Origin: Psychromonas sp. L1A2
Lineage (GTDB): Bacteria > Pseudomonadota > Gammaproteobacteria > Enterobacterales > Psychromonadaceae
NCBI RefSeq assembly: GCF_009828855.1
Contig: NZ_WUAG01000001.1
Span: 806,001-870,000 of the forward strand
Reading direction: 5' to 3'
Length of the DNA: 64,000 bases
Shown here: piece after piece, positions 29,947-49,400 of the stretch
How the letters are laid out: each line of letters starts with the position of its first letter
Numbering within the stretch: position 1 is the stretch's first letter
Position numbers and translations under genes: made by a program
The notes under the pieces: generated by a model
The model's input: the letters and a program-made list of their open reading frames with translations, nothing else
What the model was told of the DNA's origin: nothing
Databases searched by the model: none

Positions 29947-30417
29947 ATGTTTGCACGGTTGTTTTTAATTTTTACTGGTGTGTCATTACTAGAAATATTT
30001 GTATTAGTTAAAGTTGGTGGTTTTTTAGGTGCGTGGCCAACTATTTTATTAGTGATCATCACCGCGCTAATTGGTTCAGCCTTAGTGCGTAGTCAAGGTT
30101 TACAACTAGTACAAAAATTACAAGAACGCATGGCCTCAGGTGAAATGCCTGGACAACAATTAATTGAAGGGATGATGTTAATTATCACTGGGATCTTATT
30201 AGTTACTCCAGGCTTTGTGACTGACTTATGTGGTTTATTATTATTACAACCGACTCTTCGTGCAGGCATTGCTAAATTCCTATTAGCACATGTTAAATTT
30301 GCACCCCAATCTTCAATGGGTGGGTTTTCTAGCCAAGGTTTTGGCCAAACCGCTAGAAATGATGATTCAGTGATTGAAGGTGAGTTTGAACATAAGGAAG
30401 ATAAAAAAATAGATTAA
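29947..30417 (+). CDS. fxsA: FxsA family membrane protein
   Basis: The 156-residue protein has two hydrophobic N-terminal segments and two more near residues 70-110. The family pattern is clear: SLLEIFVLVKVGGFLGAWPT, GSALVRSQGL, PGQQLIEGMMLIITGILLVTPGF (in part) and DLCGLLLLQP. The C-terminus is polar and acidic. E. coli FxsA limits phage T7 exclusion by the F plasmid when overproduced; its normal role is unclear. It lies upstream of groES as in E. coli, separated here by one small unknown gene. Confidence 0.92.
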   Translation: MFARLFLIFTGVSLLEIFVLVKVGGFLGAWPTILLVIITALIGSALVRSQGLQLVQKLQERMASGEMPGQQLIEGMMLIITGILLVTPGFVTDLCGLLLLQPTLRAGIAKFLLAHVKFAPQSSMGGFSSQGFGQTARNDDSVIEGEFEHKEDKKID

Positions 30418-30571
30418 ATATTGTGATTTAATCTAAATGTTTTTTAATAAAATTGTCATATAGTTTGCGTAATATACGTGCATCGTTTATTAATGCGCTG
30501 TTTATTAATACATTAGATTAATAGCTAACATCAATGCAACATCAAAATAAAAAATAATAATAAAAGGTAAA

Positions 30572-30820
30572 ATGATGAAAATTACTCGTCCTAGTACTTT
30601 AAGAGTATTTAAAAAATACCAACCACGTCAAATTGCAAAATTTGCTAAAGGTTTTTTTAATGGCCGTATTTTTATAGCAGGGTTAGGTCGCTTTAGAGTC
30701 GTTGATGGAAAAGTTGTTGCCTACAAACATTTAATTGCAGAACAGAAAGTCTTAATGGCTGTCAGCGAAATTAATAAAATGGTGTTAGAGCTGTCTCACC
30801 CAAAAGTCGTTACTGCATAA
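30572..30820 (+). CDS. Unknown small basic protein between fxsA and groES
   Basis: The 82-residue protein is rich in Lys, Arg and aromatic residues in its first half (RVFKKYQPRQIAKFAKGFFNGR, in part) and has a hydrophobic VLMAVSEINKMVLEL helix later. There is an AAAAGG site before two possible ATG codons (30572, 30575). I do not recognise the family. It has no signal peptide or clear membrane segment. Sound codon use and site support a real gene; the basic N-terminal half would suit nucleic acid or membrane surface contact, which is a guess. Confidence 0.6.
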   Translation: MMKITRPSTLRVFKKYQPRQIAKFAKGFFNGRIFIAGLGRFRVVDGKVVAYKHLIAEQKVLMAVSEINKMVLELSHPKVVTA

Positions 30821-31104
30821 TCTGTTTGTCATTTTAATGGTTTCTTCGTCATAACTGTCCTTTAGTGATAACGGCCCATTAAGCTTTAATCATTCCTTAC
30901 TTTTAACCACACCTTGATTTTCTTTTTCTCAAACATTAAATATATACCGGTTACTATTCAAGGTGCTTTGTTCAGTCGTTAGGCGCAACATATTAGCAAT
31001 GACTAGTCCTTACCGAAGATTGCAATGAAGAGTTGGTTTTCTTCGCCGCTTGTTGGTTTTTATGTTGGTGAGAAAATTATTTTAATAATTTTTTTCTAAA
31101 CTGA

Positions 31105-31132
31105 CTTGAATCGTACCTTTTTGACCCCATCA
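31105..31132 (+). promoter_or_regulatory. Sigma-32 (heat-shock) promoter of groESL
   Basis: CTTGAAT at 31105-31111 and CCCCATCA at 31125-31132 are separated by 13 bp and match the RpoH consensus CTTGAA and CCCCATnT. It lies about 50 bp upstream of the groES start. This predicts heat induction of groES-groEL. Confidence 0.85.
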
Positions 31133-31182
31133 CATAACCAACTATAAGCAACTTAATCTGTTAACTATCAAAGGAAGTCATA

Positions 31183-31473
31183 ATGTCTATTCGTCCTCTA
31201 CATGATCGCGTTATTTTAAAGCGTACTGAGAAAGAAACTAAATCTGCTGGTGGTATCGTTTTAACTGGTAGCGCTGCTGAAAAATCAACTCGTGGTGAAG
31301 TTATCGCCGTGGGTAAAGGTCGTATTTTGGAAAATGGTGAAGTAAGACCATTAGATGTAAAAGTAGGTGATACTGTTATTTTCAGTGAAGGCTACGGCTT
31401 AAAAACAGAAAAAATTGAAGGTGAAGAAGTCCTGATCTTAAGTGAAAATGACATTTTAGCGATTGTTGAATAG
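31183..31473 (+). CDS. groES: Co-chaperonin GroES
   Basis: The 96-residue protein begins [20 protein letters not shown] (in part) and has the mobile-loop region [15 protein letters not shown] and the [11 protein letters not shown] segment. Seven copies form the lid on the GroEL chamber. AAGGAAGT precedes the start, and groEL follows after 77 bp in the same heat-shock operon. Confidence 0.98.
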
Positions 31474-31538
31474 TCGAATCATCGCTAACAATTACTGTTT
31501 ATTCTCTTGTTTTGAAAACAAAAATTAAAGAAAAGTAA

Positions 31539-33182
<1,644 letters not shown>

Positions 33183-33313
33183 TTCTGACTGCATAAATCG
33201 TCTACTTCATCGTTGCTTTACCACTCGTTTAAGAAACACTAAACGTCGCGGACAAAGCGCCTTGAATTAAACAATTTCTGCTATCCAGAATGGCATTGCT
33301 GTTTATATTATTT

Positions 33314-33340
33314 AAAAGCTCACTTCGGTGAGCTTTTTTG
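33314..33340 (+). terminator. Rho-independent terminator of groESL
   Basis: AAAAGCTCAC, TTCG and GTGAGCTTTTTT form a UUCG-capped stem with a T-run. Confidence 0.92.
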
Positions 33341-33400
33341 TTTCATAAGTAATAGTCCAAAATTGTTTTTTAATATTACCAATAAACTTAAGGAGTTATG

Positions 33401-34390
33401 ATGAAATTAAGCTTCGTATTATTAAGTCTTATGGTCGCTTTTCCACTCTTTGCTCAAATCAAAAAATCACATGCAAATCAATTGGCAGAACCATCAAATA
33501 ACTTCTTTTCTCTTAAAGAGATAAAAAATGCAGATAGCAAAGAGTTAACGCCTCTGCAATATACACAGGCGAGTGATGATACCACTTTGGCGTTTCGCTC
33601 TTATCTGCCACTGCAAGCTAACGCGATATTAATATTTTTCCATGGGGCAGGTGCTCATAGCGGACTTTCCTATAATCATATTGGTGTGGGGTTACGTGAT
33701 GAGTTTAATATTGCCGTGTATATGCCAGACTTAAGGGGACATGGAAGCTCTGATGGACCACGAGGTGATACGCCCTGTGATCAACAAGTTTGGTTAGATA
33801 TTAATACAATGGTTAAACATGCTCGAAGTCAGTATCCTTATTTGCCTCTTTTTATAGGCGGTCACTCTGCAGGAGCTGGCCTTGCACTTAATTATTCCAG
33901 TTGGGAGCAAAGAGACGTTATCGATGGTTATGTATTTCTTGCCCCTTATTTTGGTTTTCGTTCAGAAACTAGTTACGATAAAGCTGAAAATGATGGATAT
34001 GAATTTTCTAGCATAAATGTTTCAGACTTTGTTATAAATAGCATGAGTGGTGGGCTGTTTTTAGGTCATTCAAAGGCGGTTAAATTTAATTACCCTGATA
34101 GTATTTTAGAAAATAACCCTAAAATAGTCACATTTAATACGGTCAATATGTCAAAAGCAGTCACGCCTTACTCTCCTGATACTCAACTCTCTAAATTACA
34201 GCAATTCGGACTGTGGATTGGAAACAAAGATGAAGCGTTTGATCCCGAAAAAGTTATTCAGTTTGCAAAAGACAATAGTGCACCGAAAGCAAATAAAGAA
34301 ATAAAAATCATTGAGGAGGCAAATCACTTTTCTATTATTTTAGACGCTTCTAAGTTAATGGGGTCATGGATAACGAGTGTTATCCAATAA
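33401..34390 (+). CDS. Secreted alpha/beta hydrolase, monoacylglycerol lipase-like
   Basis: The 329-residue protein has a signal peptide (MKLSFVLLSLMVAFPLFAQ) and a Hydrolase_4 fold. The oxyanion motif is FFHGAGAHS, the nucleophile serine is in GGHSAGAGLAL, and the catalytic His is in EEANHFSI near the end. PDLRGHGSSDGPRG matches lysophospholipase/monoacylglycerol lipase relatives. It probably hydrolyses lipid esters in the periplasm or outside the cell. The ATG at 33401 lies five bases after AGGAG and is preferred to that at 33398. The substrate is inferred only. Confidence 0.8.
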   Translation: MKLSFVLLSLMVAFPLFAQIKKSHANQLAEPSNNFFSLKEIKNADSKELTPLQYTQASDDTTLAFRSYLPLQANAILIFFHGAGAHSGLSYNHIGVGLRDEFNIAVYMPDLRGHGSSDGPRGDTPCDQQVWLDINTMVKHARSQYPYLPLFIGGHSAGAGLALNYSSWEQRDVIDGYVFLAPYFGFRSETSYDKAENDGYEFSSINVSDFVINSMSGGLFLGHSKAVKFNYPDSILENNPKIVTFNTVNMSKAVTPYSPDTQLSKLQQFGLWIGNKDEAFDPEKVIQFAKDNSAPKANKEIKIIEEANHFSIILDASKLMGSWITSVIQ

Positions 34391-34950
34391 ATCAAAGATG
34401 ACCCTGATGATTGGGCTGACCTTAACCACAACGTCTGTCTTATAAAGAGCTTAATCATTCATTTCGCTTTAGACGTGCTACATGATGTTCTGTTTTTTAA
34501 TGGCATAAATCGACTAGCGCATCATTTGTTTAAAAAGAAGTTTGTTTGTATTTGATAACTGGGAATAATATTAATTATTTTGTATAAATAACCTAAAGGT
34601 CAAAAAGTTGAACTTTCTTTTTTCTATCAAATAATCACTATGTTTTAAGTCGCTATGGGGCACAAAGCGACTTAGAATTTGTGTGTGTGTTTATAAAATA
34701 TAACGTCAGCTGTTCCGACAAAGCAGACATTAGAATTAATAATTTGGGCCCGATTTACAACATTCAGAAGATTCAGAGTTTCCTAATCTTGATAGGCAAC
34801 TAAGCCACCATTTAGGTCATTCAAATTAACTAATCCCAGCTCCATTCATTACTTAGTTTGTCTTGGTAGTGTAATTTAAAGCTGATGAAAGAACTTTAAA
34901 TACCCTTATGATATTGTTGATATATCAGACTAGGAAAAATAAGGTTATTC
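34391..34950. other. Intergenic region at the left edge of the accessory block
   Basis: These 560 bp separate the hydrolase gene from the HEPN gene. Apart from the flanking repeat at 34647-34734, no gene or RNA was recognised. The first part contains decayed-looking text that encodes nothing. A promoter for the HEPN gene should lie near 34900-34940. Confidence 0.5.
34647..34734 (+). repeat. Left copy of inverted flanking repeat (88 bp)
   Basis: Begins AAGTCGCTATGGGGCACAAA and GCGACTTAGAA, and ends GTCAGCTGTTCC + GACAAAGCAGAC + ATTAGA. Read on the opposite strand, 42647-42734 has the same order and spacing with CAAAGCGACTTAGAA exact and the last part about 22 of 30 identical. Both parts can fold on themselves. 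The two copies bracket the HEPN and Avs-like genes. Confidence 0.6.
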
Positions 34951-36204
34951 ATGGCGTTAAACTTACAGCTTCAATTATCAATGAGTAAAGGGTTATCAAA
35001 AGCAATTGTATTTCATGGCTTAGAGTTTTCTGTAGTAGTACATCCCACTATTCACGGAGATCCAATACTAACCTCACAAGGTTTTTATTACTTAGAACAA
35101 ATGGAATCCGTAGCTGAAATACGTTTTGAAACTGGAGTTCCTCGTTTAAATGATAATCAAATTGAGTACATCTTAGATAATTATTTATTTGAATATAGTG
35201 TTATTCATGATGAGTCGCAGGTTAATACTAAAGTTACCAATTTTAAATATTCACACAGCCATTTCAGTGAAATTTATCCTTTATATGATCAATTTAATAC
35301 TCAAGCTTTATTGCTAGATGAATTAAATGATACCTCTATATTAAGTATTAAATCTCTTGAAGGAGAGCCTAAGTATTACTTTCATGATTATTGCTTAGTT
35401 AAAGCTTATAGTGACGATATGATTAAAAACCATGTTAGTGCTTTATCACAGTTACTAGATAAAAAGTTATTAGTACAAATGTTACCTACAGAAGATCGTG
35501 ACGGCTACTTTGGTAAAATGCGTCTTTTAAAGTGTGATGATGGGTTAATCGATTATTATCAAGCAAGTCAATTTGAGTATGGCTTTGGGTCAAGAGATAT
35601 TAAACCTGATCAAGGGTGGGTAACACTCAGATCTGAAATTGAAAGTGTTAATGATTTTGAATTGCCAATAGAAACCGTTTATCTTGATAAAAAATATAAC
35701 CCTATATTATTACCTTATTATTTTTCTGGTTTAAAAGAAGTTAATCCCTTATTGAATTTTATCGGCTTTTATAATGTTCTAGAGTATTACTTTGAAGAAG
35801 CACCAATTATCTTGAATAGAAAAGCTATAGGTGAAAAAGAGCAGATAGAATGCGTGTTATCTTGGCTCGTTACTGAACAATCTATAACTGATTTCTTTGC
35901 CTTACAAAGTCCTGAGTTTAACTCTATTATTGAAAATGAAATAAAAACCTCTTCAACAGTTAGTATTAAAGGGTTAGATATTAAGACAAAATCAAATTTA
36001 GTTCGCAAGCTCTCAATCTGGTTCTACTCTATCAGGTGCGCTGTTATTCACTCTAAAAAAAGTCGTAATAACAAAGAGGTAGCTATATTTAAACCATATT
36101 CAGAAGAAGTAAATAATATGGCGATATCAATTCCAGTAATTAAATGGTTGGCTATTAAATGTATTCAAAAAGACAGTCAATTAAATGGTTTTTGTGATTT
36201 ATAA
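34951..36204 (+). CDS. Putative HEPN-domain ribonuclease (defence-type)
   Basis: The 417-residue soluble protein shows no family I recognise in its first 250 residues. The C-terminal part looks like a HEPN domain: a helix with LLNFIGFYNVLEYYFEEAPI followed about 95 residues on by RCAVIHSKKS, where R362-x4-H367 is the RNase motif Rx4-6H of HEPN toxins. In such proteins (ApeA, RloC, RnlA, Cas13 relatives) the dimer cuts RNA, often tRNA, during phage attack. It lies opposite an Avs-like defence operon inside the same inverted flanks, which supports a defence role. It has its own promoter region. The catalytic claim rests on the motif alone. Confidence 0.55.
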   Translation: MALNLQLQLSMSKGLSKAIVFHGLEFSVVVHPTIHGDPILTSQGFYYLEQMESVAEIRFETGVPRLNDNQIEYILDNYLFEYSVIHDESQVNTKVTNFKYSHSHFSEIYPLYDQFNTQALLLDELNDTSILSIKSLEGEPKYYFHDYCLVKAYSDDMIKNHVSALSQLLDKKLLVQMLPTEDRDGYFGKMRLLKCDDGLIDYYQASQFEYGFGSRDIKPDQGWVTLRSEIESVNDFELPIETVYLDKKYNPILLPYYFSGLKEVNPLLNFIGFYNVLEYYFEEAPIILNRKAIGEKEQIECVLSWLVTEQSITDFFALQSPEFNSIIENEIKTSSTVSIKGLDIKTKSNLVRKLSIWFYSIRCAVIHSKKSRNNKEVAIFKPYSEEVNNMAISIPVIKWLAIKCIQKDSQLNGFCDL

Positions 36205-36405
36205 TGATTTGAAATATGCGTCCCCAAGGTATGTCGAGATATGCTTACCTTACATTAGCCGTATGGCAAGAAGTGATATAATGAATTTGAGCACTCTTTT
36301 ATATATATTTTCGATGACGTATTAAAGGAAATTGAGTATGCATTCTAAATTGCCTTTACTAATGACTACTTCAGCCTCAAAGTTAATATTTAGTCATTAA
36401 ATACC

Positions 36406-36444
36406 AATAAAGGCAATGAGCTTGCAGGAGTCTTTGCCTTTATT
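36406..36444. terminator. Inverted repeat between the convergent defence genes
   Basis: AATAAAGGCA at 36406-36415 is complementary to TGCCTTTATT at 36435-36444. A third related arm (TTGCCTTTACTAATGA) lies at about 36350, allowing alternative folds. It sits between the HEPN gene and the partner gene of the Avs-like operon, where a two-way terminator is expected, but it lacks strong T-runs. The rest of this 329-bp gap shows nothing else. Confidence 0.4.
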
Positions 36445-36533
36445 CTAACTTCGTATACATAAGAGCTGGCAACAAAGTCACCAGAGCAATGCATTAAACA
36501 CCAACTTGCTGAAGGTTATTTATTATTTTCACT

Positions 36534-37397
36534 CTAAATAACTTCACTGTAATAAATTACATCAGGGATTATTTTTTTAAGTTTATTGAAATAGTCCTCT
36601 CTTAATATCAAATCACAACCTTCAAGCTTTGCAATATTTGAGTCCATCCCAACAAATGAAGAGCCATTACCAATTAATCGTTCTCTCCAACATCTAAATT
36701 GTAAAACGATTTCATCATTGCTATTTAATGCCCTTAGACCTTCATTGTAATTATCTAATTTTAGTTCAAGCATGTTCAATAATTTACTATTCATCCATAA
36801 AACGTATTGAGATTCGATGCTATTAATACTTGCATTAAAGCCCTGTATAAAAATCTCTCCAAGGTAGTAGCTGTTTTCCCAAATATGGTTAGACGAATAT
36901 TTCTCAACTAAAGGGTTCATTTCTATTTTACATGGAAGTAAACCTTCAAATATTATACCACCTTTGCTTTTCTCTCTTTCTCCGTAATTATTTTCACTTA
37001 ATTCTCTTTCAAATCTTGAGATCACTCTAAAACCCTCTTCATAATCAGGCTCTTTAAAGCCCATCACTACATCAGAAGGTTTTCGTATTATGGGTCTTTG
37101 GATTAAGGACTTAGAAGTGGCAATAATTGTTTTTATATCTAGTTTTATTTCACTTTCAAAAATCAGAGAGCTTTTATATTCGTCATATAAATGCTTGCAT
37201 ACGTATTTAAATACTAAGCTATCTATGTACACATTAGGAGACAATCGTTGATGAGAACGATTGACAAAAAATCCCATTTCATTTTCGTTAACATTTTTTA
37301 TTATTTCCTCTTTTATTACATCAATATCAATTCCAACATTGTCTAAATAAACAAGGTATTTGTTCCGACTTATGCTAGCTAAAATTTGCTCATTCAT
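36534..37397 (-). CDS. Unrecognised partner protein of the Avs-like system
   Basis: The 287-residue soluble, charged protein has no signal peptide or membrane segment, and I recognise no domain. A middle segment (KGGIIFEGLLPCKIEMNPL) looks beta-rich. The end is alternating and holds CWRERLIGNGSSF and LEGCDLILREDYFNKLKK. Its ATG overlaps the stop of the large gene by eight bases (ATGAATGA), so it is made together with it and probably works with it, for example as a sensor, adaptor or inhibitor. Most Avs types with a fused nuclease act as single genes, so a fixed second gene is noteworthy. The DNA is very AT-rich, like its partner. Confidence 0.55.
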   Translation of the reverse strand: MNEQILASISRNKYLVYLDNVGIDIDVIKEEIIKNVNENEMGFFVNRSHQRLSPNVYIDSLVFKYVCKHLYDEYKSSLIFESEIKLDIKTIIATSKSLIQRPIIRKPSDVVMGFKEPDYEEGFRVISRFERELSENNYGEREKSKGGIIFEGLLPCKIEMNPLVEKYSSNHIWENSYYLGEIFIQGFNASINSIESQYVLWMNSKLLNMLELKLDNYNEGLRALNSNDEIVLQFRCWRERLIGNGSSFVGMDSNIAKLEGCDLILREDYFNKLKKIIPDVIYYSEVI

Positions 37398-40300
37398 GAT
37401 CTAATCCATCTAAAATATCTTGTAGAGTGTTGTGGATATATAAATTTTCAATAACAAGAGCCTTCTTTAATTCAAGTTTAACCTCATTCAAAAATATAGA
37501 GTGGTTATCTATTTCGACTAGAAAAAGTTCTAATAAAGCTGCAACTGACAATTGATGAAAACGCTCTATATTATTAAAAAACCATCTAAAGGGTTTTATT
37601 AATAATGTATCATTGTGTTGCATGAGATAGCTAATAGCTACAATGATATCCTTTTGTATAAAGGCATCTAAGTTTTTTGTTTTACTAAGAATTACTACTA
37701 TAGCTAGTTCATCATGATTCATATCTGATAATTCGATGCTCTCTACACTTTCCCATTTAAAATCATTTTTATCCGGTAATCTATTTTCAATAAAGTCAAA
37801 ACTATTTTTGTACATTGATAAAATAGTTTCATCTTCTAAACCGGCATGTTCAAATGCAATAATTAAGTTAGAAGTATATTTATATAAGTAATTAGCAGAA
37901 GTTAGTATTTTACGAAGCGTTTTTGCTAAGATTTTCAAAGAGTCGGTTTTATTAATTTCTATGGCATCTTTCAGTGATTCTTTGTCAAAAAAACTAAAAA
38001 GAGAGTCATCCCTAGAGTAAACAAAATTATTTATTAAAAGAAAAATTTTAATTTCATTCGATAAAGATAATTGATTGATAATAAGTCGAATTGACTTATA
38101 GAATTCATCCGTTTCGCCTCTAATTTTTTTTGTAATAAGTGAAATCAATAATTCTTTTGAAAGTTTTTCATCATTGTTTCCAAAAAGGTATAAATAAAGA
38201 TAATCGAAATCCGCATAACTTAAACTGAATTTTTTACTATTTTCTTGAATTAACTGAATCTTAGTTTTATCGCTTAAAGCTGTAGGTTTACAAATTACCC
38301 TTGTTAAATAATCACATTCTGTTTCATTAATATGTGCCATAAGAGATTGTTTATTATTTTCTTTTAAGCTATTGGGGACGTTCAAACCAAATTTACTTAG
38401 TAATGAATTAAATTTAGTAAGTATCTTATAAGTCACATCACTATCTGAATGGCTTAACCCCCTACTAATTAAATTAATTAAAGATAGTTCTCCTAGCTTT
38501 TTATCTATACTTCCTAGTTTATTAATTACACTCAAAAATCCATTCAGGTAATTATTATTTATATTTGTTGGGGACAATTTATATAGAAAATTAAGAATTA
38601 TAGGATCTACAGAATCACTTTGTTGTAGGTATGCAACAAACATGTAATCAAGCTTCCAAAAATACTCATTCGTTAAAAACTCATTACATAAGTACATAGA
38701 GGCTAACTTATAATTAACATTCAAAAGTTGCTCAAACCAACTAATAGTCAACCATCGAGTATCTTTACCATCTTCTGTATGCTTCATTACAGCATCAGTT
38801 AAGAACTTTAACTTCTTAGAGTATTGCAAAGTAAATTCTTGATTAATTCTATTGATAGCTGGTAATGGGTAAATGACTTCTGTCAGGGTTGTATCTTTAC
38901 GAGAGGTGTAACTCGTGATCAGCAAAAGAGCCTTTTCCAGTTCGTCTTTTGCTTCATTAATCATTCCGACTTTTCCATAATAAATGGACTTCCTAAATGA
39001 ATAGTCTGCATGTTCATAATATTCATTGCTTTCCGCTTTATCAAACTGCTCATAGGCATCAATAATCAAGTGAATATTTTTATCATTTAGAAATTTTTTT
39101 TCTATTATGGGCAGTATTTGAAGTGGTATTCTCATTAAATCTGAGATCGCGACTTCCCATGACTCCTTTGAGACTATATATCGTAAAGATCGCTCAATAG
39201 TAAGCTCAATTAGACTACTATGGGTATCAATAAAATATACTGCTCTTGGTTCTCCTTTAAAGCGATCTGTATCGCTAGCTAAAAATTTAATGTTTTCTAG
39301 GATTGCTTTTTCTTTGTTTGTATCAGCGCAAGTATTTTCAATTATAAATAACCGAATAAAATACTTCATCCAATTGCATACGAAATTGTGTGAGGGCATT
39401 CCTTTTTCAAACTCAATTAATGCTTCAATATCGGACTGAGCATATCGTTCAACATTAAAGTAAAACTTGTCTAATTCATTGTTTTTTATAGGCTCACCTA
39501 TAAATTTTAAATCCAAAGGCTCTATTTCAGAAGGCTGTTTGTCATCTGCAATCGAAATTCTTTGTTCGCAATTTGTTCTCTCTAGAGCAGCATTAATTCT
39601 AACTGCGATCGTTTTGTCTTCATCGTCATTAACACTTTTACAATGATGAAGTATCACCTCAAAACCTTTACTCTTAAATACTTCTACAATAAAAACTCTA
39701 AGATAATCAGAGTATTTATCAGATAAAACAGAATTGAAGATTTTATCTAATGGACTATTTATTTGAATTTGATAACAAATGAAATATTTAAAATCATCAA
39801 ATGCAACGCCACTTTCAAATAAACCTTTTACTTCTTCCCAATGTGGTGAGTATCCATATTCTTGCAATATCGTAAAACCTTTAGCTGTAGTTCTGTCACT
39901 ATAGTTTTTTTCGCTATTAAAAAATAAAAATGAATTAGCTTTTTCTGTTCCATAGATAGAACAAATTGCTTCAAAATATAGCTCGAAATTATCTAAAAAC
40001 TGACTATGGTTTTTCTCAGAGTTTGTTGTTGATATAGCTCGATGCAACTCCCCTGAATAAATAAATAGAGGCCAGTCTTGTAATTTCTCTGCTATGTATA
40101 AGAAATGTTCATAGTTATTCTTTATTAACGTCTCTGAATGACCGTAATATAAGCTTTTGGATAAGAAGCTTTTCTCTGCATACGCACTCGCGTCTTCATA
40201 CCGTTCTGAAAGTATTAAGTAGTTTAATAAATATCTGTAAGATTTATCATTTTCATAGAAGTCATTATTAATCAACCAATTTGCTATATATTCATATATC

Positions 40301-42129
40301 TCTTTTATGTCTTCTATAGAAGACAGTTTCTCAATGTTAAACCTTCTAAAACTGTCATGATATAACTTTACTCCCCCCCTAGAGCTATTTTCAGATATAA
40401 CAGGGGCTAATACTTTCATGTCAGGATTAAAATGACGCTTCATCGGTATTATTTCTTTGAGTTCTTTTTTACTAACAGCGAACTCTAAGCAAGATAATAT
40501 TTCAGACGTTGTATTATTGCCTATTTGACTTGTTAAATATTCATAATAATTTTTTAGGCCTAAATCATATTTAGGCAGGCTATCGATAAGCTCTTCATTA
40601 ATAGCTTGATAATCATTAAGAGTCTTTAGTATGTAAGTCAAATATAGTGGACTCCCTTCACTTTTTTTATGAAGTAGAATCGATAGATTTTCATCATTAA
40701 TTTGAATGTCTTCACATTCAAACCTGTCCATCAGTTCTTTAGTATTTTCTATATCCCAATTAGGTAATTGTACTTTTATAAATTCATAACTTTCTGTTAA
40801 AACGGCAACTTCATCCGTTGGCTGAGAACCTAATATAATACTGACATTATTAGGTAGTTTGATCTTCGATATGTACTCAATAATTTTTGTCTTTTCTTTA
40901 GATAAAGTAACTGAATTTTTCAAAACTCTATTAATATGATCTAAACCATCTACTATGATTATGATTGGCTCCTCAATAGCAGAAAGTAATAGATTTAACT
41001 CTTCTAAGTTAGCTGCTAGTACATTATTTTTTTCTTTTTTTAATTCAGGAAATTTTTGCCCAATCTCACTTATTAGGTTACCAAAAAAAACATCTAAACT
41101 AACTCTCTTATCAAACAAGGGATCTTCTGTACTCGTGAAGCAATAGTGTCGTATTACAGCATGGTTATTTCGTGTCAAATACTCTATTAAGTTGGTTAAG
41201 AACCATGACTTTCCTGCACCGGGCTCACCGAGCAATAACGTTTTATTGTTAGTAATAGCATTTTCAAGAAATAAACTATTTTTTTCATCTGATGTAATGT
41301 TTTTATTTTGGTCAACTTCGAATTTTTGCTCTATTCGACCAAAATCGGTTCTTACTCGTAGTTCAATAAGTATATCTTTTGCTGAAATTTGAGCTGAGCG
41401 TGTTCTACACACTCCTGTTAATTTAGCTAATCGTTCTAGAAAATCAGAGATGTAAATATCATCATTTGGATATTGTTCTATACCTAATTTTTGAGCTTGT
41501 TCTATTAGTATTTCTTCTAACTGACTTGGTCTATTAAATTTTAAACTTGCTTTAGGTAAGTTGACCTCAATAAGTAAATCATTACAAAAATAATTAAAGT
41601 CGGCCCTATTTATATCGTTATCTTTTACATAAGTTTTTAGGCTATTCCAGCGATTAAAATTTTCTTGATTTTCTTCCCATAATTGGTCAAGGTTAATTTT
41701 GAAAACTTTTGTTGGAAAATTATTGAATGATGACCTGTCAAGCTGTACCTCTAAAATTCTTGTAATGTCTTGGTCAACTGGTTCGTCCCAAGCCAAGCAT
41801 AATCTAAATTCAGTATTAGGGGTTTTAAGGTTTTTCCACGTTTCAAATAATTTATGGATTGCTATTTTGTAATGAGTATCACCTGAAAGGTAATCTTTTA
41901 TTAGTATTTTTGATACTGTGTCATTACTGTACTTAATCTGCTTCCGCTGTATTTCGGCACCATTAGTAATGACTAAGTCATCAAACCTATCAGGGATACT
42001 ACCTGTCGTGTTCTTTTTATCTATTGAAAAAATACTATCGAGATTACCATCTAAAATTTCTTTTAAAATAAAGTAGCTTGTTATCAAATCTTGGTAATCA
42101 TACCCTTCATGTGCATTATTTAAACTCAA
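37390..42129 (-). CDS. Avs-like STAND NTPase with N-terminal Cap4/DUF4297-like nuclease
   Basis: This very large protein (1579 residues from the TTG at 42129) has three parts. The N-terminal ~190 residues resemble the Cap4/DUF4297 PD-(D/E)xK nuclease: an HEGYDYQDLITSYFILKEIL-type opening helix, then RFDDLV and EIQRKQIKY carrying the acidic, Gln and Lys residues. A STAND P-loop NTPase follows, with Walker A GEPGAGKS and Walker B IIIIVDGLDH about 90 residues later. The remaining ~1000 residues are helical, repeat-like and without clear motifs, as in the TPR-type sensors of Avs proteins. The TTG start has AAAGGTG eight bases upstream; an ATG at 42195 would add a hydrophobic 22-residue tail. The inferred role is to sense a phage protein and degrade DNA. 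Confidence 0.75.
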   Translation of the reverse strand: MSLNNAHEGYDYQDLITSYFILKEILDGNLDSIFSIDKKNTTGSIPDRFDDLVITNGAEIQRKQIKYSNDTVSKILIKDYLSGDTHYKIAIHKLFETWKNLKTPNTEFRLCLAWDEPVDQDITRILEVQLDRSSFNNFPTKVFKINLDQLWEENQENFNRWNSLKTYVKDNDINRADFNYFCNDLLIEVNLPKASLKFNRPSQLEEILIEQAQKLGIEQYPNDDIYISDFLERLAKLTGVCRTRSAQISAKDILIELRVRTDFGRIEQKFEVDQNKNITSDEKNSLFLENAITNNKTLLLGEPGAGKSWFLTNLIEYLTRNNHAVIRHYCFTSTEDPLFDKRVSLDVFFGNLISEIGQKFPELKKEKNNVLAANLEELNLLLSAIEEPIIIIVDGLDHINRVLKNSVTLSKEKTKIIEYISKIKLPNNVSIILGSQPTDEVAVLTESYEFIKVQLPNWDIENTKELMDRFECEDIQINDENLSILLHKKSEGSPLYLTYILKTLNDYQAINEELIDSLPKYDLGLKNYYEYLTSQIGNNTTSEILSCLEFAVSKKELKEIIPMKRHFNPDMKVLAPVISENSSRGGVKLYHDSFRRFNIEKLSSIEDIKEIYEYIANWLINNDFYENDKSYRYLLNYLILSERYEDASAYAEKSFLSKSLYYGHSETLIKNNYEHFLYIAEKLQDWPLFIYSGELHRAISTTNSEKNHSQFLDNFELYFEAICSIYGTEKANSFLFFNSEKNYSDRTTAKGFTILQEYGYSPHWEEVKGLFESGVAFDDFKYFICYQIQINSPLDKIFNSVLSDKYSDYLRVFIVEVFKSKGFEVILHHCKSVNDDEDKTIAVRINAALERTNCEQRISIADDKQPSEIEPLDLKFIGEPIKNNELDKFYFNVERYAQSDIEALIEFEKGMPSHNFVCNWMKYFIRLFIIENTCADTNKEKAILENIKFLASDTDRFKGEPRAVYFIDTHSSLIELTIERSLRYIVSKESWEVAISDLMRIPLQILPIIEKKFLNDKNIHLIIDAYEQFDKAESNEYYEHADYSFRKSIYYGKVGMINEAKDELEKALLLITSYTSRKDTTLTEVIYPLPAINRINQEFTLQYSKKLKFLTDAVMKHTEDGKDTRWLTISWFEQLLNVNYKLASMYLCNEFLTNEYFWKLDYMFVAYLQQSDSVDPIILNFLYKLSPTNINNNYLNGFLSVINKLGSIDKKLGELSLINLISRGLSHSDSDVTYKILTKFNSLLSKFGLNVPNSLKENNKQSLMAHINETECDYLTRVICKPTALSDKTKIQLIQENSKKFSLSYADFDYLYLYLFGNNDEKLSKELLISLITKKIRGETDEFYKSIRLIINQLSLSNEIKIFLLINNFVYSRDDSLFSFFDKESLKDAIEINKTDSLKILAKTLRKILTSANYLYKYTSNLIIAFEHAGLEDETILSMYKNSFDFIENRLPDKNDFKWESVESIELSDMNHDELAIVVILSKTKNLDAFIQKDIIVAISYLMQHNDTLLIKPFRWFFNNIERFHQLSVAALLELFLVEIDNHSIFLNEVKLELKKALVIENLYIHNTLQDILDGLDHE

Positions 42130-42195
42130 ACTACTTTCACCTTTTATCAATAATATAAATAGGAAGTCCATCTTAAGGGAACACTGACGTTTCAT

Positions 42196-43035
42196 CTTTT
42201 ATTTATATAACACAAATGCACTGATAAAGCAGTTTGTTCAGTGATTTCACTTAGTTAGGAAATAGTTTTAGTCGCAGGTGAAGTCTAAATGTGCATTTGT
42301 AAAAGTATCAATATGCAACAAACGTTGATAATAAAATGTATTATGGGTACATATTTATAAAGGAAGCTTCTGTCAGTGTAGCGGCCAGTGATTTTGGTCA
42401 ATAATTCAGAGAGAAATGGATCATTTTCCTAGGGCGCTTTTTGATGTAAAGCGACTTACAAAGCTAAGTCGAAAACGCCCACGCCCCCAAGTAAGATAGA
42501 CAAGAGATGGTTATATGATGACTATAGAACCGTAGTTAGCGCTCATTAAAAGTATTAACAATGGCAGGAATGAGCTTAAAACTGCCTCACAGCTAGCAGA
42601 AAAATCTGGAGAATATGCACCCAATAATTGTCATCGCTTCACAATATCTAACGTCGGCTTTAGGCTCACAGCGGACTTTTAAATTATGATCAATGATATA
42701 CATTTCTAAGTCGCTTTGGGGGCGAAAGTGACTCACGGCTTTAGCCCCAATCTCACATAATAAACCTGATACTTTTCGTTATTAAACTGTTACACCTAAG
42801 CAGAAATAAACACTGGCGATTATAAAAATTCTCTTAGTCTTTACCAAACTAAATCCAATAAAAGCCAAGTGTCATTCTTTTATTTTGATGCCTTTTTTCC
42901 TCAAATACCAACTTTAAATTATCGCTATTAGTCCCTCTTTTATAAGCATTATTTATTTATCTTTTTATTAAATACAGTCATTGCTAATCGCTATATTCTT
43001 GTCTATATTGAAATCGTTCTTTTCCCTTTAATTGG
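42196..43035. other. Intergenic region at the right edge of the accessory block
   Basis: These 840 bp hold no convincing gene. They contain the right flanking repeat (42647-42734) and a related hairpin at about 42427-42472 (GGGCGC...AAGCGACTTAC...TAAGTCG...CGCCC). A short stretch near 42540-42620 reads like decayed coding sequence but is too short to identify. Promoters for the Avs-like operon (leftward) and the glutathionylspermidine gene (rightward) must lie at the two ends. Confidence 0.5.
42647..42734 (-). repeat. Right copy of inverted flanking repeat (88 bp)
   Basis: On the reverse strand it reads GAGTCACTTTCGCCCCCAAA, then GCGACTTAGAA, and ends GTCCGCTGTGAGCCTAAAGC + CGACGTTAGA. It pairs with 34647-34734 in opposite orientation and equal length. 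Confidence 0.6.
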
Positions 43036-44937
43036 ATGACAATCTTGTCTAATAAATCAATCTCTTGTTCTTTTGGTACCTTACTTGGCTATGCACCAGG
43101 TGGTGTTGCTGCGTATTCTAGTGACTATGATAGTGCTAGTGATGTTGAGTATCCTAAACGTAGTGCTTTCCGTAGTTATGTGGATGGCATTTATATGGGC
43201 TATAAGTGGCAATGCGTTGAATTTGCACGTCGTTGGATGTATCAAAACTGTGGTTATATTTTTGATGATGTTTCGATGGCTTATGAAATATTCAATTTAC
43301 GTTCGGTACGCGATATTGCGTCTAATACACGTTTGCCACTACAAGCTTTTGGCAATGGCAGTCAACGTCACCCGCAACCGGGTTGTTTGTTAATTTGGGA
43401 GCAAGGTGGCGAGTTTGAAGAAACAGGGCATGTTGCCATTGTCACTGAAGTGTTCGCCGATAAAATCCGTATTGCAGAGCAAAACCTTGACCATGTTAAG
43501 TGGCCTGAGGGGCAGAACTATAGCCGTGAATTAGCGGCGACGATCAGTGAAGATGGCGAATATTGGGTGGCTTGTTCATTTAATGATGCGTTGATTTTAG
43601 GGTGGATGATACAAACTGACGATGACACTGATGCGGAAATACGTGAAGAAACTGATAAGCAGTTGTTTTCTTTATCTAGCCATCATGTCAAGCCTGTCTC
43701 AGGGCAAAAGAAGTCTTGGTTAAATGTCGCCAACAAAGATGAAGCGGCTTATGTCAAAGCATTGCAGGGGCATAAGTTAAGTGCCGCGTTTGCTGATGAA
43801 TATCGCTATTATGTTTTGTCTGAAACAGCGGAAGATGCTTTACGCCGAGCGACCAATGAGCTGCATGGTTTATTTATGCATGCCACGGATTATGTGCTTG
43901 ATAACGAACATCTATTAGACAAATTTAATTTACCACGTGCTTTATTAGCTAAGATCCGCCAATCCTGGGATAACCGTTTAAACCAGTTGATCACCAGTCG
44001 TTTTGATTTCGCGATGACAACGCAAGGTTTGAAGGTTTATGAATATAACTGTGACTCTGCGTCATGTTATATGGAAGGGGCTAAAATTCAGGGAAAATGG
44101 GCAGATCATTATGGCGTTCATGAAGGTGAAGATGCAGGTAAAGATCTGTTTAATCAGCTGGTGAAAGCATGGCAAAAAAGTCAGGTAAAAGGGTTGATAC
44201 ATATTCTTCATGATGATGATCCTGAAGAGAAGTATCATGCTTTATTTATTCAACAGACCTTAAAAGCGGCAGGTATTGATAGTCGTTTGATTGAAGGAAT
44301 TGATTCTTTAATTTGGGATGAATCAGGCAATGTGGTTGATGCACAAGGCGAGGTATTGCATTGGGTTTGGAAAACTTGGTCATGGGAAACAGCTCTGGAC
44401 CAAATTCGCTTAGAATGTGAATCAGATGATGCGTCGCCCGAGAGCTTTGAGCCTTTATCTAAAAAAGGTAAAACGCCACGACTTGCTGATGTGTTACTGC
44501 ATAAAAACATTATGATTTTTGAGCCGTTATGGACATTAATTCCAAGCAATAAAGCGATATTACCGGTGTTGTGGTCATTATTTCCGAATCACCCATTATT
44601 GTTACATGCTGACTTTGAATTAAATGAAGATTTACAAGCCAGCGGTTATGTTAGCAAGCCGATTGTTGGCCGTTGTGGAGCGAATATTCAGTTAGTTGAC
44701 TACGCGCAAGATGTGTTGGATGCAACGGACGGACAGTTTGCCCATCAAGACAATATTTACCAATCGCTATTTCCATTACCGTTGGTTGATGGTTATTACG
44801 TTCAAGTTTGTACGTTCACTGCAGCAGGTAAGTATGCAGGTAGTTGTTTGCGAGTGGATTCGTCGATGATTATTAGTAAAGACAGTGATTGTTTGGCGTT
44901 ACGCTTTGTGAATGATGAGGCGATTTTGTTGCAATAA
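43036..44937 (+). CDS. gss: Bifunctional glutathionylspermidine synthetase/amidase
   Basis: The 633-residue product (E. coli Gss has 619) carries an N-terminal CHAP-type amidase, FGTLLGYAPGGVAAYSSDYD (in part), with catalytic Cys60 in YKWQCVEFARRW and the His in TGHVAIVTE. The C-terminal ATP-grasp-like synthetase has LHGLFMHATDYVL, VYEYNCDSASCYMEGAKI and VWKTWSWETALDQIR. It joins glutathione to spermidine with ATP and also hydrolyses the product, linking thiol and polyamine pools. It stands just outside the right flank of the defence block with no operon partner. The Shine-Dalgarno site is weak, so the exact start may shift by a few codons. Confidence 0.95.
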   Translation: MTILSNKSISCSFGTLLGYAPGGVAAYSSDYDSASDVEYPKRSAFRSYVDGIYMGYKWQCVEFARRWMYQNCGYIFDDVSMAYEIFNLRSVRDIASNTRLPLQAFGNGSQRHPQPGCLLIWEQGGEFEETGHVAIVTEVFADKIRIAEQNLDHVKWPEGQNYSRELAATISEDGEYWVACSFNDALILGWMIQTDDDTDAEIREETDKQLFSLSSHHVKPVSGQKKSWLNVANKDEAAYVKALQGHKLSAAFADEYRYYVLSETAEDALRRATNELHGLFMHATDYVLDNEHLLDKFNLPRALLAKIRQSWDNRLNQLITSRFDFAMTTQGLKVYEYNCDSASCYMEGAKIQGKWADHYGVHEGEDAGKDLFNQLVKAWQKSQVKGLIHILHDDDPEEKYHALFIQQTLKAAGIDSRLIEGIDSLIWDESGNVVDAQGEVLHWVWKTWSWETALDQIRLECESDDASPESFEPLSKKGKTPRLADVLLHKNIMIFEPLWTLIPSNKAILPVLWSLFPNHPLLLHADFELNEDLQASGYVSKPIVGRCGANIQLVDYAQDVLDATDGQFAHQDNIYQSLFPLPLVDGYYVQVCTFTAAGKYAGSCLRVDSSMIISKDSDCLALRFVNDEAILLQ

Positions 44938-44940
44938 AAA

Positions 44941-45007
44941 ATCAGTAAGTTGCTAATTATCAGTAAGCTAGTACAAGTAGATTACTGATAGTTAATAGCT
45001 TACTGAT
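44941..45007 (+). terminator. Long imperfect hairpin after gss
   Basis: ATCAGTAAGTTGCTAATTAT + CAGTAA pairs with TTACTGATAGTTAATAGCTT + ACTGAT, about 22 of 26 positions. It lies between convergent genes and is followed on the right by a weak T-run (GTGTTTTTAA). Confidence 0.55.
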
Positions 45008-45079
45008 ATTGTGTTTTTAAACTCACATTGTTGATCTGACTTTCTTTATTGAAAGTCTTCGCGAGCTTTGTAATGCTAA

Positions 45080-46030
45080 TTATTTATTAAGTTCTTTCAT
45101 GAAATGCATAATATATTTTGCAATTTCAACTGGTTTTTCTTCCATCGCAAAATGACCTGCATCGATTAAATGAAGCTCTGCATTGGGTAGATCTTTTAAG
45201 TAAGCTTCTGCGCCTGCTGATATAAAGGCGGGATCATTTTTGCCCCAAACCAATAACGTCGGTAGTTGTTTCTCACGTAAAAATGCTTGCCATTTTGGGT
45301 AAGCTAATAAGTTATTGTAATAATCTTGCAGCAACTGTACTTGGATAACGCGTTGTTGTTCGGTCTCTAAAAAGTGCAGTGCGTGAGTCCAGCTATCAGG
45401 GCTCATGATCTCTTCTTTACCTTTAACATCACGTAAATATTGCTTATCTTTAATACCTTGTACGCCAGTAAAGTCATAAAGCTTTTTAAACATTTCTGGA
45501 GATGTATCTTCATGTGCTTTTTTGAAAAATGCTTGGCGTGGTGGTGTTAACCCTTCTAAATAAGCATTCCCATTTTGTGTGATCAACGCTGTCACGCGAT
45601 CTGGTTGTTGCATCATTAAGCGAAAGCCAACGGGTGCGCCAAAGTCTTGCATGTATACGGTGTAATTTTTAATGCCAAGTGCTTTAACAAACCCGTCCAT
45701 CACATCTGCCAATAGGTCAAATGTGTATGGGTGTTTCTTAGGATCGGGTTTATCGCTGTAACCTGAACCTAGGTTGTCTGGCACGACAATATGAAACGAT
45801 CCTGATAGTAGTGGAATCAGATGACGATACATGTGTGAAGAAGAAGGGTACCCGTGTAAAAACAGAATAGTAGGGTTGTCTGGATTACCCGCTTCGCGAT
45901 AAAAAATATTATTTCCGTCGACGTTAACGTTACGATAATAGGTGGTTTCAGGCCAAACGGCTTGTTCTGCAAAGGTTAAAGGGCTTGTGAATACGGTAAG
46001 TAAAATAAGAAACTTATAAATTATTTTCAT
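45080..46030 (-). CDS. Periplasmic alpha/beta hydrolase, haloalkane dehalogenase/epoxide hydrolase-like
   Basis: The 316-residue protein has a signal peptide (MKIIYKFLILLTVFTSPLTFA, in part). Its core is that of the Asp-nucleophile hydrolases: ILFLHGYPSSSHMYRHL with the HGxP oxyanion motif, PDNLGSGYSDKP, the nucleophile Asp in YMQDFGAPVG, LLVWGKNDPAF for the acid, and DAGHFAMEEKP for the His. This set is seen in haloalkane dehalogenases and epoxide hydrolases; the substrate is not predictable. A periplasmic place is somewhat unusual for these groups. It stands alone between convergent and divergent neighbours. Confidence 0.82.
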   Translation of the reverse strand: MKIIYKFLILLTVFTSPLTFAEQAVWPETTYYRNVNVDGNNIFYREAGNPDNPTILFLHGYPSSSHMYRHLIPLLSGSFHIVVPDNLGSGYSDKPDPKKHPYTFDLLADVMDGFVKALGIKNYTVYMQDFGAPVGFRLMMQQPDRVTALITQNGNAYLEGLTPPRQAFFKKAHEDTSPEMFKKLYDFTGVQGIKDKQYLRDVKGKEEIMSPDSWTHALHFLETEQQRVIQVQLLQDYYNNLLAYPKWQAFLREKQLPTLLVWGKNDPAFISAGAEAYLKDLPNAELHLIDAGHFAMEEKPVEIAKYIMHFMKELNK

Positions 46031-46437
46031 GTTATTTTCTCAACATTGGTTGTTTAGTTAATCGCTTAATTGATAGCTATTTAAAATGATTATTGAGTCA
46101 GCCTATTGTTAGTACTAACGATAAGTAAATGGTGGTGAACAGATCTGTTTACTTGTTTGCGATAGTGGACTTTGAATTATATTTTGTCAAATAAAACCTA
46201 ATTCAAATTTATCTCTGTTGGAGGTGTTTAAAAATCAGATTAAAAGCAATTAAAAAAACAGTTAGCCTTTCTCTTTAATTATCAGAAAAACATATTTGTT
46301 TATTCAATTGATTAATTACTCTATTTTCAATATTTTTGTGTGCTAATAAGCGCTTCTTAATCTATTGTATTGTTTATTTATTTTTTTAACTTAGCCTTAA
46401 GCTGAGCCGTTAATTTTTACCACTAGGTAGGTATTAC
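46031..46437. other. Intergenic region between the hydrolase and gdhB
   Basis: These 407 AT-rich bases hold the promoters of two divergent genes. A short palindrome GTTAGTACTAAC lies at about 46109. No gene or RNA was seen. Confidence 0.45.
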
Positions 46438-49400
46438 ATGAATATAAAAACGAACCAGAAATCAGACATCCTCGAACAAATCTTTTCTCAATTAAAAGCG
46501 CATTTTCCTGTGCGTGAACAGTCTTTATTACAAAATTTTATTAATGCCATTTATCGCGATGTCAGTATTGTTGATCTCGCGATCATTAGTCCTGACGATT
46601 TAGCAGGTTTAACGGTTTCTTTATGGCGTGAAGTGCATCAATGGAAAGGGGAAGTCGCTAAGGTCAAAGTATTTAACCCTGATGTTGAGCAAGATGAATG
46701 GCAATCAACGCATTCAATTATTAGTGTATTAAGCCGTAATATTCCTTTTATTATTGATACAGTCAAAATCACCCTAAATAAGCATAATACTAAACTTCAT
46801 CGTATTTTCTACAGTGAAATAAACAGTGAACGTAATGCTTCTGGTAAATTAAAAACACTTAACTCAGATATTGTTAATGCGAATGATTCGAACACTGAAC
46901 TATTGCTTTATATTGAAATCGATCAAACTAGTTCTTCTTCTGAACGATTGAAAATTCAAAATAGTTTAGAGAAAGCATTAGGTAATGTGTCTTTGGTTGT
47001 TGATGATTATTCTCACATGGCCGACAAAGTAAAAGATGCGATTAAAGTCAGTAAAAAAGAAGTGACTGCGATTACTTCAAAAGCAGATTTTGCAGAACAA
47101 CAAACTTATTTAGATTGGATGGCAGACGATCATTTTACTTTTCTTGCCTGTGACCAATTTACCGTAAAAGACGGCATGATTAGTATTGTTGAAAAAAGCC
47201 AATTAGGTTTATTAAAGCATAAAGAATTTATGCATGACAAAACACAATTCGATTGTTTACATGAGTTACAAGAATCGTCTTTATTGCATTTCAGTAAAGC
47301 GTCGCAACGTGCGATGGTGCATCGAATTGCTTATCCAGATGTGGTGTATGTTAAACAGTTCAATAAACAAGGTGAGTTGATTGGCGGTACACGCTTTATC
47401 GGTCTTTACACTTCTTCTGTTTATAGTGGCAGTCCATTAGGTATTCCAGTTGTTAGACAGAAAATAAATAATATTTTAGCGCAGTCTGGTCTGAGTTTAG
47501 GTGGGCACTATTATAAAGAGTTAACGCAAATCTTATCGACCTATGCCATTGAAGATTTATTACTTTGTGATGAAAAAACCTTACTTAATAATGTGGTAGA
47601 AGTTTTACATGCACAGGAAAGAAAGCAGCTTAAACTCTTTTTAAGAACCGATGGTAATAAACGTTTTGTTACTGCTTTACTGTATGTACCTCGCGATCTT
47701 TATAATACTAAAGTAAGACTCAAGTTTGTTGAGTTGTTATCACGCACTATGGACATTGTAGACAGTGACTTCCAAACCTATTTGAGTGAATCTAACCTTG
47801 CACGTTTACGTTTGGTGATTCACCTTGATAAGCCGCTTCAAGGCGAGTTAGAACTTGATGCTATTCAATTGCGTATGCAGCAAATTACTAAAGCATGGAA
47901 TGAAGATCTACAAGATTCATTAATTGAAAATCATGGTGAAGAAACGGCTGTTAAATTAGCGCGTAAATATGAATCTGCTTTCCCGACGAGTTACCAAGAT
48001 AGCTTTAGTTCTCGTGTTGCTGTGACGGATATTGACCGTATTGAATCATTGTTTTTATCACCAGATCGCTCAATGGCCTTGCGTTTCTACCGTTCTATTG
48101 AAGCGAATAATAGTGGATTGAAATTAAAGTTATTCCATCAAGATGGGGCTTTATTATTATCAGACTTAATTCCTATTTTAGAAAACTTAGGGTTAAAAGT
48201 CGCTCAAGAATACCCTTACCAAGTATCACCTTCAGGTGAGAGTGTATTTTGGTTATATGATTTCACGTTGTTATACGTTAACGATGATGGTTTTGACCCT
48301 GAAAATTACCGTCATTTATTCTCTGATGCGTTCCTTGCTATTTGGTATGCACAGGCAGATAACGACCCATTCAATAAATTGATTCTAGGGGCTGGCATTG
48401 CGTGGCGTGATATTGCCATGTTGCGTGCTTATGCCAAATACTTAAAACAAATTCGTTTTGGTTTCAGTCATTTCTCTATTGCTAAAACCTTGTTAGACCA
48501 CAGTGGGTTTGTAAAACAGATTGTTAATTTATTCCATGCTCGTTTTAACCCCGAAAAACAGGTGAGTTTAGAGAAACAAGCAGAGCTAGAAAACGCTATT
48601 TTAGAATCTCTTAACGATGTCAGTAACCTCAATGAAGATAGAGTATTACGTAAATACGTTGAACTGATTATGGCAACGATTCGTAGTAACTATTTCCAAC
48701 AACAAGAGGGTGAGTTTAAAGATTACATTAGCTTTAAGTTCGACCATAAAAAAATAGGCGAAATTCCATTACCGCGCTTAAGTTACGAAGTATTTGTTTA
48801 TTCTCCTCGTTTTGAAGGTGTGCATTTACGTGGCGGTAGTGTTGCTCGCGGTGGCTTACGTTGGTCTGACCGTGGTGAAGATTACCGTACTGAAGTGCTA
48901 GGGCTGGTGAAAGCACAGCAAGTTAAAAACTCTGTGATTGTACCTGTTGGTGCTAAAGGCGGCTTTGTTGCTAAGTACCTTAACCCAACAATGGATCGCG
49001 ATACCTTTATGCAAGAAGGTATTGCCTGTTACAAAATGTTCATTAGCGCGTTATTAGATATTACCGATAACCTTGAAGCGGGTAATTTAATCCCACCTCA
49101 GCAAGTGGTGCGTTACGACAATGATGACCCGTATTTGGTGGTGGCTGCGGATAAAGGCACGGCGACGTTCTCTGATATTGCTAACGAATTAGCGACAGAT
49201 CGTAACTTCTGGCTAAACGATGCATTTGCATCAGGCGGCAGTAATGGTTACGACCATAAGAAAATGGGGATCACAGCTAAAGGTGCCTGGATTAGTGTAC
49301 AGCGTCACTTTAGAGAGCTAGGCGTTGATGTCCAAGAACAACCAATTTCAGTGATCGGTATTGGCGACATGGCGGGCGATGTATTTGGTAATGGCATGCT

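Follow-up and report, generated by a model that had tools for sequence, protein, structure and literature searches.

In a window of 64,000 nucleotides from the probably marine bacterium Psychromonas sp. L1A2 (positions 806,001-870,000 of NZ_WUAG01000001.1; the genome is 4.34 Mb, in two contigs), we find two overlapping genes that probably form an Avs-like anti-phage system. The first encodes a large protein, built from a nuclease-like domain, a STAND ATPase core and a helical C-terminal half, that would act as a bacterial NLR. The second encodes a dedicated partner. We observe the domains, their intact motifs, the conserved gene pair, an island around it and, in one pair of alleles, mosaic divergence; we infer defence itself, the trigger, nuclease activity and the role of the partner.

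A conserved pair of overlapping genes

The STAND gene lies at 37390..42129 on the minus strand and encodes 1579 amino acids if translation begins at TTG 42129. An upstream ATG, at 42195, would give 1601. Since aligned relatives begin at the same N-terminal SLNNAHEGY, with TTG, GTG or ATG as start codon, TTG 42129 is the likely start. Residue numbers are counted from it. An earlier note on this DNA had reported the open reading frame (ORF), and the minus-strand frame 42129-37390 is confirmed. Because full-length relatives exist, one 84% identical and the others 46-52%, we regard the ORF as real and not a chance occurrence.

The partner gene (36534..37397, minus strand) encodes 287 amino acids of no recognisable family, and its start overlaps the end of the STAND gene by 8 nucleotides. 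We compared eight close loci: the window, Pseudoalteromonas neustonica (L002), an Arcobacter metagenome-assembled genome (MAG; L003), Gallibacterium genomosp. 3 (L004; the same gene as G294), a gammaproteobacterial MAG (L005; apparently G061), plasmid pMEGA of P. translucida TAC125 (L022), a Moraxella osloensis plasmid (L023) and G265 (L030). The partner adjoins the STAND gene in all eight and is intact in seven. It is broken in L004, where the 1568-aa STAND gene is open. In L005, the STAND gene is split across two contig ends. The overlap is exactly 8 nucleotides in six of the seven intact pairs, with L030 deviating. Note that one listing marked the STAND gene of G265 as broken ('stop inside'). 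We rejected this, as the breakpoint script shows 1571 open codons.

Homologues of the partner occur in four of 394 genomes of the order, each with a STAND gene, and in one of 369 genomes of the class, the window's own, again alongside the STAND gene. Both plasmid records with a partner homologue have it next to the STAND gene. No partner without a STAND gene was found in the searches made; the genome_contigs collection was probed by the STAND protein only, so such a case could be missed there. Phages and viral contigs gave zero matches to the partner. Among distant relatives, L024 and L028 lack a partner-like gene adjoining the STAND gene. Against Pfam, PADLOC, NCBIfam and PDB sequences, the partner had chance-level hits only (e.g. 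ArsC, 17.8 bits, cut-off 24). Its AlphaFold model was unusable, and identity was judged from sequence searches. The partner was found only with STAND proteins of this clade and varies between alleles together with their C-terminal half, so its most likely role is alongside the sensor, whether as a co-sensor, an adaptor or an assembly factor.

Domains of the large protein

Residues 1-190 (41560..42129, minus strand) form a Cap4/DUF4297-like PD-(D/E)xK nuclease domain, according to alignment, profiles and predicted structure. The earlier note had recognised such an N-terminus, and a profile search of it gave a divided answer. The Pfam Cap4 profile PF14130 did not reach the N-terminus in any of six family members (E<=5), and scored 17.3 bits, below its cut-off of 26.2, on the N-terminal piece of the distant relative L028. 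Conversely, Cap4-type models of PADLOC matched weakly in four of the six (best E 0.0011). With hhalign, the family N-terminus aligned to a Cap4-type domain profile at E 9.5e-5 and 59% probability, against E 0.1 and 0.6% for the reversed control. For two further profile pairs, E was 0.002 and 1.1e-4. In the PDB, profiles of the whole family and of the nuclease domain found nothing beyond chance level (best E 0.057 and 0.081). The predicted order of secondary structure is alpha-beta-beta-beta-alpha-beta, and this core carries the D ... QxK arrangement of PD-(D/E)xK enzymes. Structural matches are to Avs3 and HerA-DUF4297 (9c1m_G, residues 11-261), the fold call resting on a structure model of modest confidence.

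The earlier note had placed the active site at EIQRK. This does not hold, as E59 is retained in just two of six sequences. Instead, D50/D51 (41977-41982) and Q64-x-K66 (41932-41940), both on the minus strand, are invariant in all six relatives. D51 and Q64-x-K66, with the equally invariant D50, are the likely active site.

The STAND/NACHT ATPase occupies residues 274-600 (40330..41310, minus strand) on the evidence of profiles, alignment and structure match. As the earlier note had read, the P-loop is complete: Walker A, GEPGAGKS (residues 301-308; 41206-41229, minus strand), and Walker B, IIIIVDGLDH (residues 389-398; 40936-40965, minus strand), are both intact. Pfam NPHP3_N scored 35.2 bits (cut-off 24.8, E 1.8e-8), which with the two Walker motifs places the protein among STAND/NACHT ATPases. 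Pfam NACHT scored 25.8 bits, slightly below its cut-off of 26.7. Both profiles were detected in all six members (E<=5). PLYL (residues 494-497), which we take to be a GxP-type motif, and YHDSFRR (residues 590-596), presumably MHD-like, are invariant in the family.

The remaining residues, 601-1579 (37393..40329, minus strand), are the presumed sensor. A helical C-terminus of about 1000 residues had been described; helices are predicted up to residue 1200, where the model ends.

Relationship to Avs and other known systems

In excerpts from the literature, Avs1-Avs5 are STAND proteins that sense phage proteins; Avs1-4 bring about cell death through nuclease effectors, and the Avs5 effector is a Sir2 NADase (PMC12931631). 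The window protein has the general Avs layout, an N-terminal effector followed by STAND and a long C-terminal helical sensor, with helices modelled to residue 1200. Its best match among solved structures is Avs3 (PDB 8dgc; Foldseek E 2.8e-10), from a model of modest confidence. In VIA-align, Avs3 heads the matches listed, but ORC chains, which align to the ATPase core, score within 1 Z of it. Avs4, Avs2 and CBASS Cap4 are not among the best fifty VIA matches listed, which proves nothing.

Avs3 shares the order of Cap4-type nuclease, STAND and long helical sensor. However, its chain has 2028 residues rather than 1579, the family profile picks up no Avs3 sequence in the PDB, no PADLOC Avs3 model matches, and the window system has a dedicated 287-aa partner. 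By sequence, the nearest named protein is Avs1b. The PADLOC Avs1b model has hits in the STAND cores of L004 (E 1.2e-10) and of the distant relatives L024, L029 and L027. Avs1b models are the only Avs models to touch the family, in one of six members for PADLOC (STAND core) and two of six for NCBIfam (best E 1.3e-7). Avs1b has been described as bearing a trypsin-like protease, which switches on Avs1a, an MBL nuclease (PMC12799240). By contrast, the N-terminus of the window protein is itself nuclease-like, and the scanned neighbours, P0002 and P0003, are not the upstream MBL nuclease expected for Avs1. A search for Avs1b across 119 genomes of the order gave zero matches, as did its controls, and carries no weight. 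Avs5 differs in its Sir2 NADase effector. Cap4/DUF4297 nucleases, such as CBASS Cap4 and DUF4297-HerA, share the G-Y-x-Y-Q, DD and QxK pattern, but the window nuclease is fused to STAND and family scans found no SAVED or HerA. Excerpts of PMC11291478 report that DUF4297-HerA cuts double-stranded DNA and that its nuclease domain has been overlaid on the Cap4 domain of Avs3.

The window protein had no match at E<=1 to any Avs model in PADLOC and NCBIfam. The Avs reading stands for layout and Avs3 likeness; the protein falls outside the Avs types modelled there. The kind of system, Avs-like defence, is known, but the libraries searched hold no record of the clade, the partner or the exchange of sensors discussed below. 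Overall, the earlier interpretation was right about domain layout and wrong about active-site residues, and it did not notice the mosaic sensor, the island or the partner gene with its overlapping start.

Mosaic divergence of the sensor half

The closest relative of the window protein is that of P. neustonica. Over residues 1-820 the two share 96% identity, and of the codons at positions with the same residue, 7.2% differ. For residues 881-1200, identity is 82% and 24.8% of such codons differ. Residues 1201-1400 (37930..38529, minus strand) form a hypervariable cassette with only 43% identity and 47.7% of such codons differing, and residues 1401-1579 return to 76% and 21.3%. Note that residues 821-880, omitted from these blocks, resemble the first block in a separate comparison. 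Fitting a single change point to the synonymous differences gained 55.0 log-likelihood units, compared with a maximum of 7.6 in 300 permutations. We reject protein-level selection as the only driver of the divergence, because synonymous divergence also rises. This would not be expected from protein selection alone, and recombination between alleles is therefore the simplest account that these sequences suggest.

Other relatives were compared in the same region. At residues 1220-1339, P. neustonica is 67-68% identical to the G061 MAG, and the window 30-42%. Across residues 1201-1400, P. neustonica shares 47% with the pMEGA protein and 43% with the window protein. The C-terminal sensor half has apparently been exchanged between alleles, with residues 1201-1400 resembling a separate allele. 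The partner proteins of the window and P. neustonica share just 79% identity where the nuclease-STAND parts share 96%, which looks as though the partner had travelled with the sensor half.

Distribution and genomic context

At E<=1e-8, the STAND protein has matches in eight of the 394 genomes from the order, and in three of these the match is limited to the STAND core. Among the genus genomes examined, only the window's own has a match, and two named Pseudoalteromonas records (L002, L022) carry the gene. Phage records and viral contigs contain no relatives, and E. coli genomes no near DNA match to the system. Comparing window positions 30001-46500 with L002, DNA likeness is confined to 36534-42130, running from start codon to partner stop.

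The near relative G257 defines a variable island of about 8 kb (34685..42716). Its flanks match the window at 95-96% (33343-34684 and 42717-44957), and about 2.5 kb of other genes replace 34685-42716. In G076, 7.7 kb of other sequence, including recombinase-like ORFs by inspection, separates groEL from the gene at 43036, which is glutathionylspermidine-synthase-like by inspection. Nine other genus genomes have that flanking gene; in the four examined, the system is absent from the equivalent site. G+C content is 27-33% in the island and 38-42% in adjoining genes, a weak contrast, since window positions 30.0-31.5 kb and 46-47 kb are also low (30-34%). In L002, one integrase-like ORF lies on each side of the operon (by inspection). 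L022 (annotated) and L003 (by inspection) have type I restriction genes no more than 4 kb away, pMEGA being a carrier of restriction systems. Palindrome-like elements, 80% alike, are present near both island ends (34643-34677 and 42704-42733), and related sequence is also found at the G257 (L048) junctions.

The same island encodes a 417-aa protein (34951-36204, plus strand), convergent with the operon. Its best family is MauJ, at 16 bits with a cut-off of 28. It contains RCAVIH, an R-x4-H pattern that we assume to be of the kind seen in HEPN ribonucleases, and could be a further defence gene. On the Moraxella plasmid, three overlapping genes annotated only as hypothetical (1194, 2130 and 3747 bp; L023, 915-7957) lie immediately upstream of the system and are possibly another defence operon. 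In G072 (L028, 2668-9952), transposase-like ORFs break up a related nuclease-STAND gene immediately after its nuclease motif; this gene shows 33% identity over residues 160-788. Distant Cap4-STAND proteins are neighboured by a 481-aa gene in Cupriavidus pMOL28 (L027, 6209-12072), and have 818-aa and 1322-aa genes upstream in G193 (L029, 1481-13674). Given these differing neighbours, L027 and L029 suggest that several multi-gene nuclease-STAND systems exist.

Discussion

We propose the following mechanism. The C-terminal helical half would recognise a phage-encoded protein. Binding would release the STAND ATPase, leading to ATP uptake and oligomerisation as in Avs3 and other STAND proteins, and so gather the N-terminal Cap4-type nuclease domains. 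These would cut double-stranded DNA, via D51 and Q64-x-K66, and death of the cell would end the infection, by analogy with Avs1-4 and DUF4297-HerA. One mRNA probably serves both genes, with the partner translated through the overlapping start, and the partner would act with the sensor as co-sensor, adaptor or assembly factor.

A more specific version is tentative. The sensor half and partner could together be one exchangeable specificity module, with recombination swapping it, above all the cassette at 1201-1400, onto a fixed nuclease-STAND engine. The partner would then present or validate the phage trigger, like paired or helper-dependent plant NLRs. Several observations weigh against recombination as the source of the mosaic. 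Its border is blurred (near 880, 972 or 1085), two early blocks (1-40 and 681-720) also show raised synonymous divergence, and the contrast depends on a single allele pair, window and P. neustonica. Against G061, just residues 1220-1399 stand out.

It is possible, though we lean against it, that the large protein suffices by itself as an Avs-type sensor, the partner being a dispensable, antitoxin-like regulator or inhibitor that restrains the nuclease until infection. The position of the partner after the nuclease gene, with an overlapping start, would suit this, and in L004 the partner is broken yet the STAND gene open, so it seems dispensable there. However, an obligate inhibitor would hardly be lost with the nuclease gene intact, unless the protein is otherwise inactive or the break is a sequencing error. 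Moreover, the co-variation of partner and C-terminal half between window and P. neustonica fits sensing better than restraint of a conserved nuclease.

Action chiefly against plasmids or other mobile DNA, not phages, is improbable. Cap4-type domains are indeed shared by several systems, among them Lamassu; the relatives L027 and L029 have LmuA hits, and two family members are plasmid-borne (L022 and L023). Nevertheless, the neighbours listed include no SMC-like gene, and the architecture is that of the phage-protein-sensing Avs3. Least probable is a non-immune STAND regulator, either MalT-like or a housekeeping AAA+ ATPase. Generic AAA/STAND hits and the maltose-system chain 8bob_C, among the VIA matches listed, are compatible with such a role, and published work bears on it. 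Excerpts of PMC11858219 report that transcription of the TAC125 STAND homologue, PSHA_p00043, and its partner, PSHA_p00042, is higher at 15 than at 0 degrees (log2 1.90 and 1.19), as for 25 of 27 changed pMEGA genes, and its authors read PSHA_p00043 as a general, growth-related AAA+ protein. Against this, the predicted nuclease has invariant catalytic residues, distribution is patchy, the locus sits in an island and, in L003 and L022, restriction genes are neighbours. The literature searched holds no description of the pair as a defence system, which does not establish its absence from print.

Avs proteins connect bacterial and eukaryotic innate immunity. The two-gene system described here adds a rare Avs-like family with a linked partner. 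Its natural alleles, with the same engine and different sensors, offer a direct route to map what the sensor reads. Since a homologous operon (WP_181718163/WP_181718162) is on pMEGA, and excerpts of PMC11858219 describe a plasmid-cured derivative of TAC125, KrPL2, a first test could be quick.
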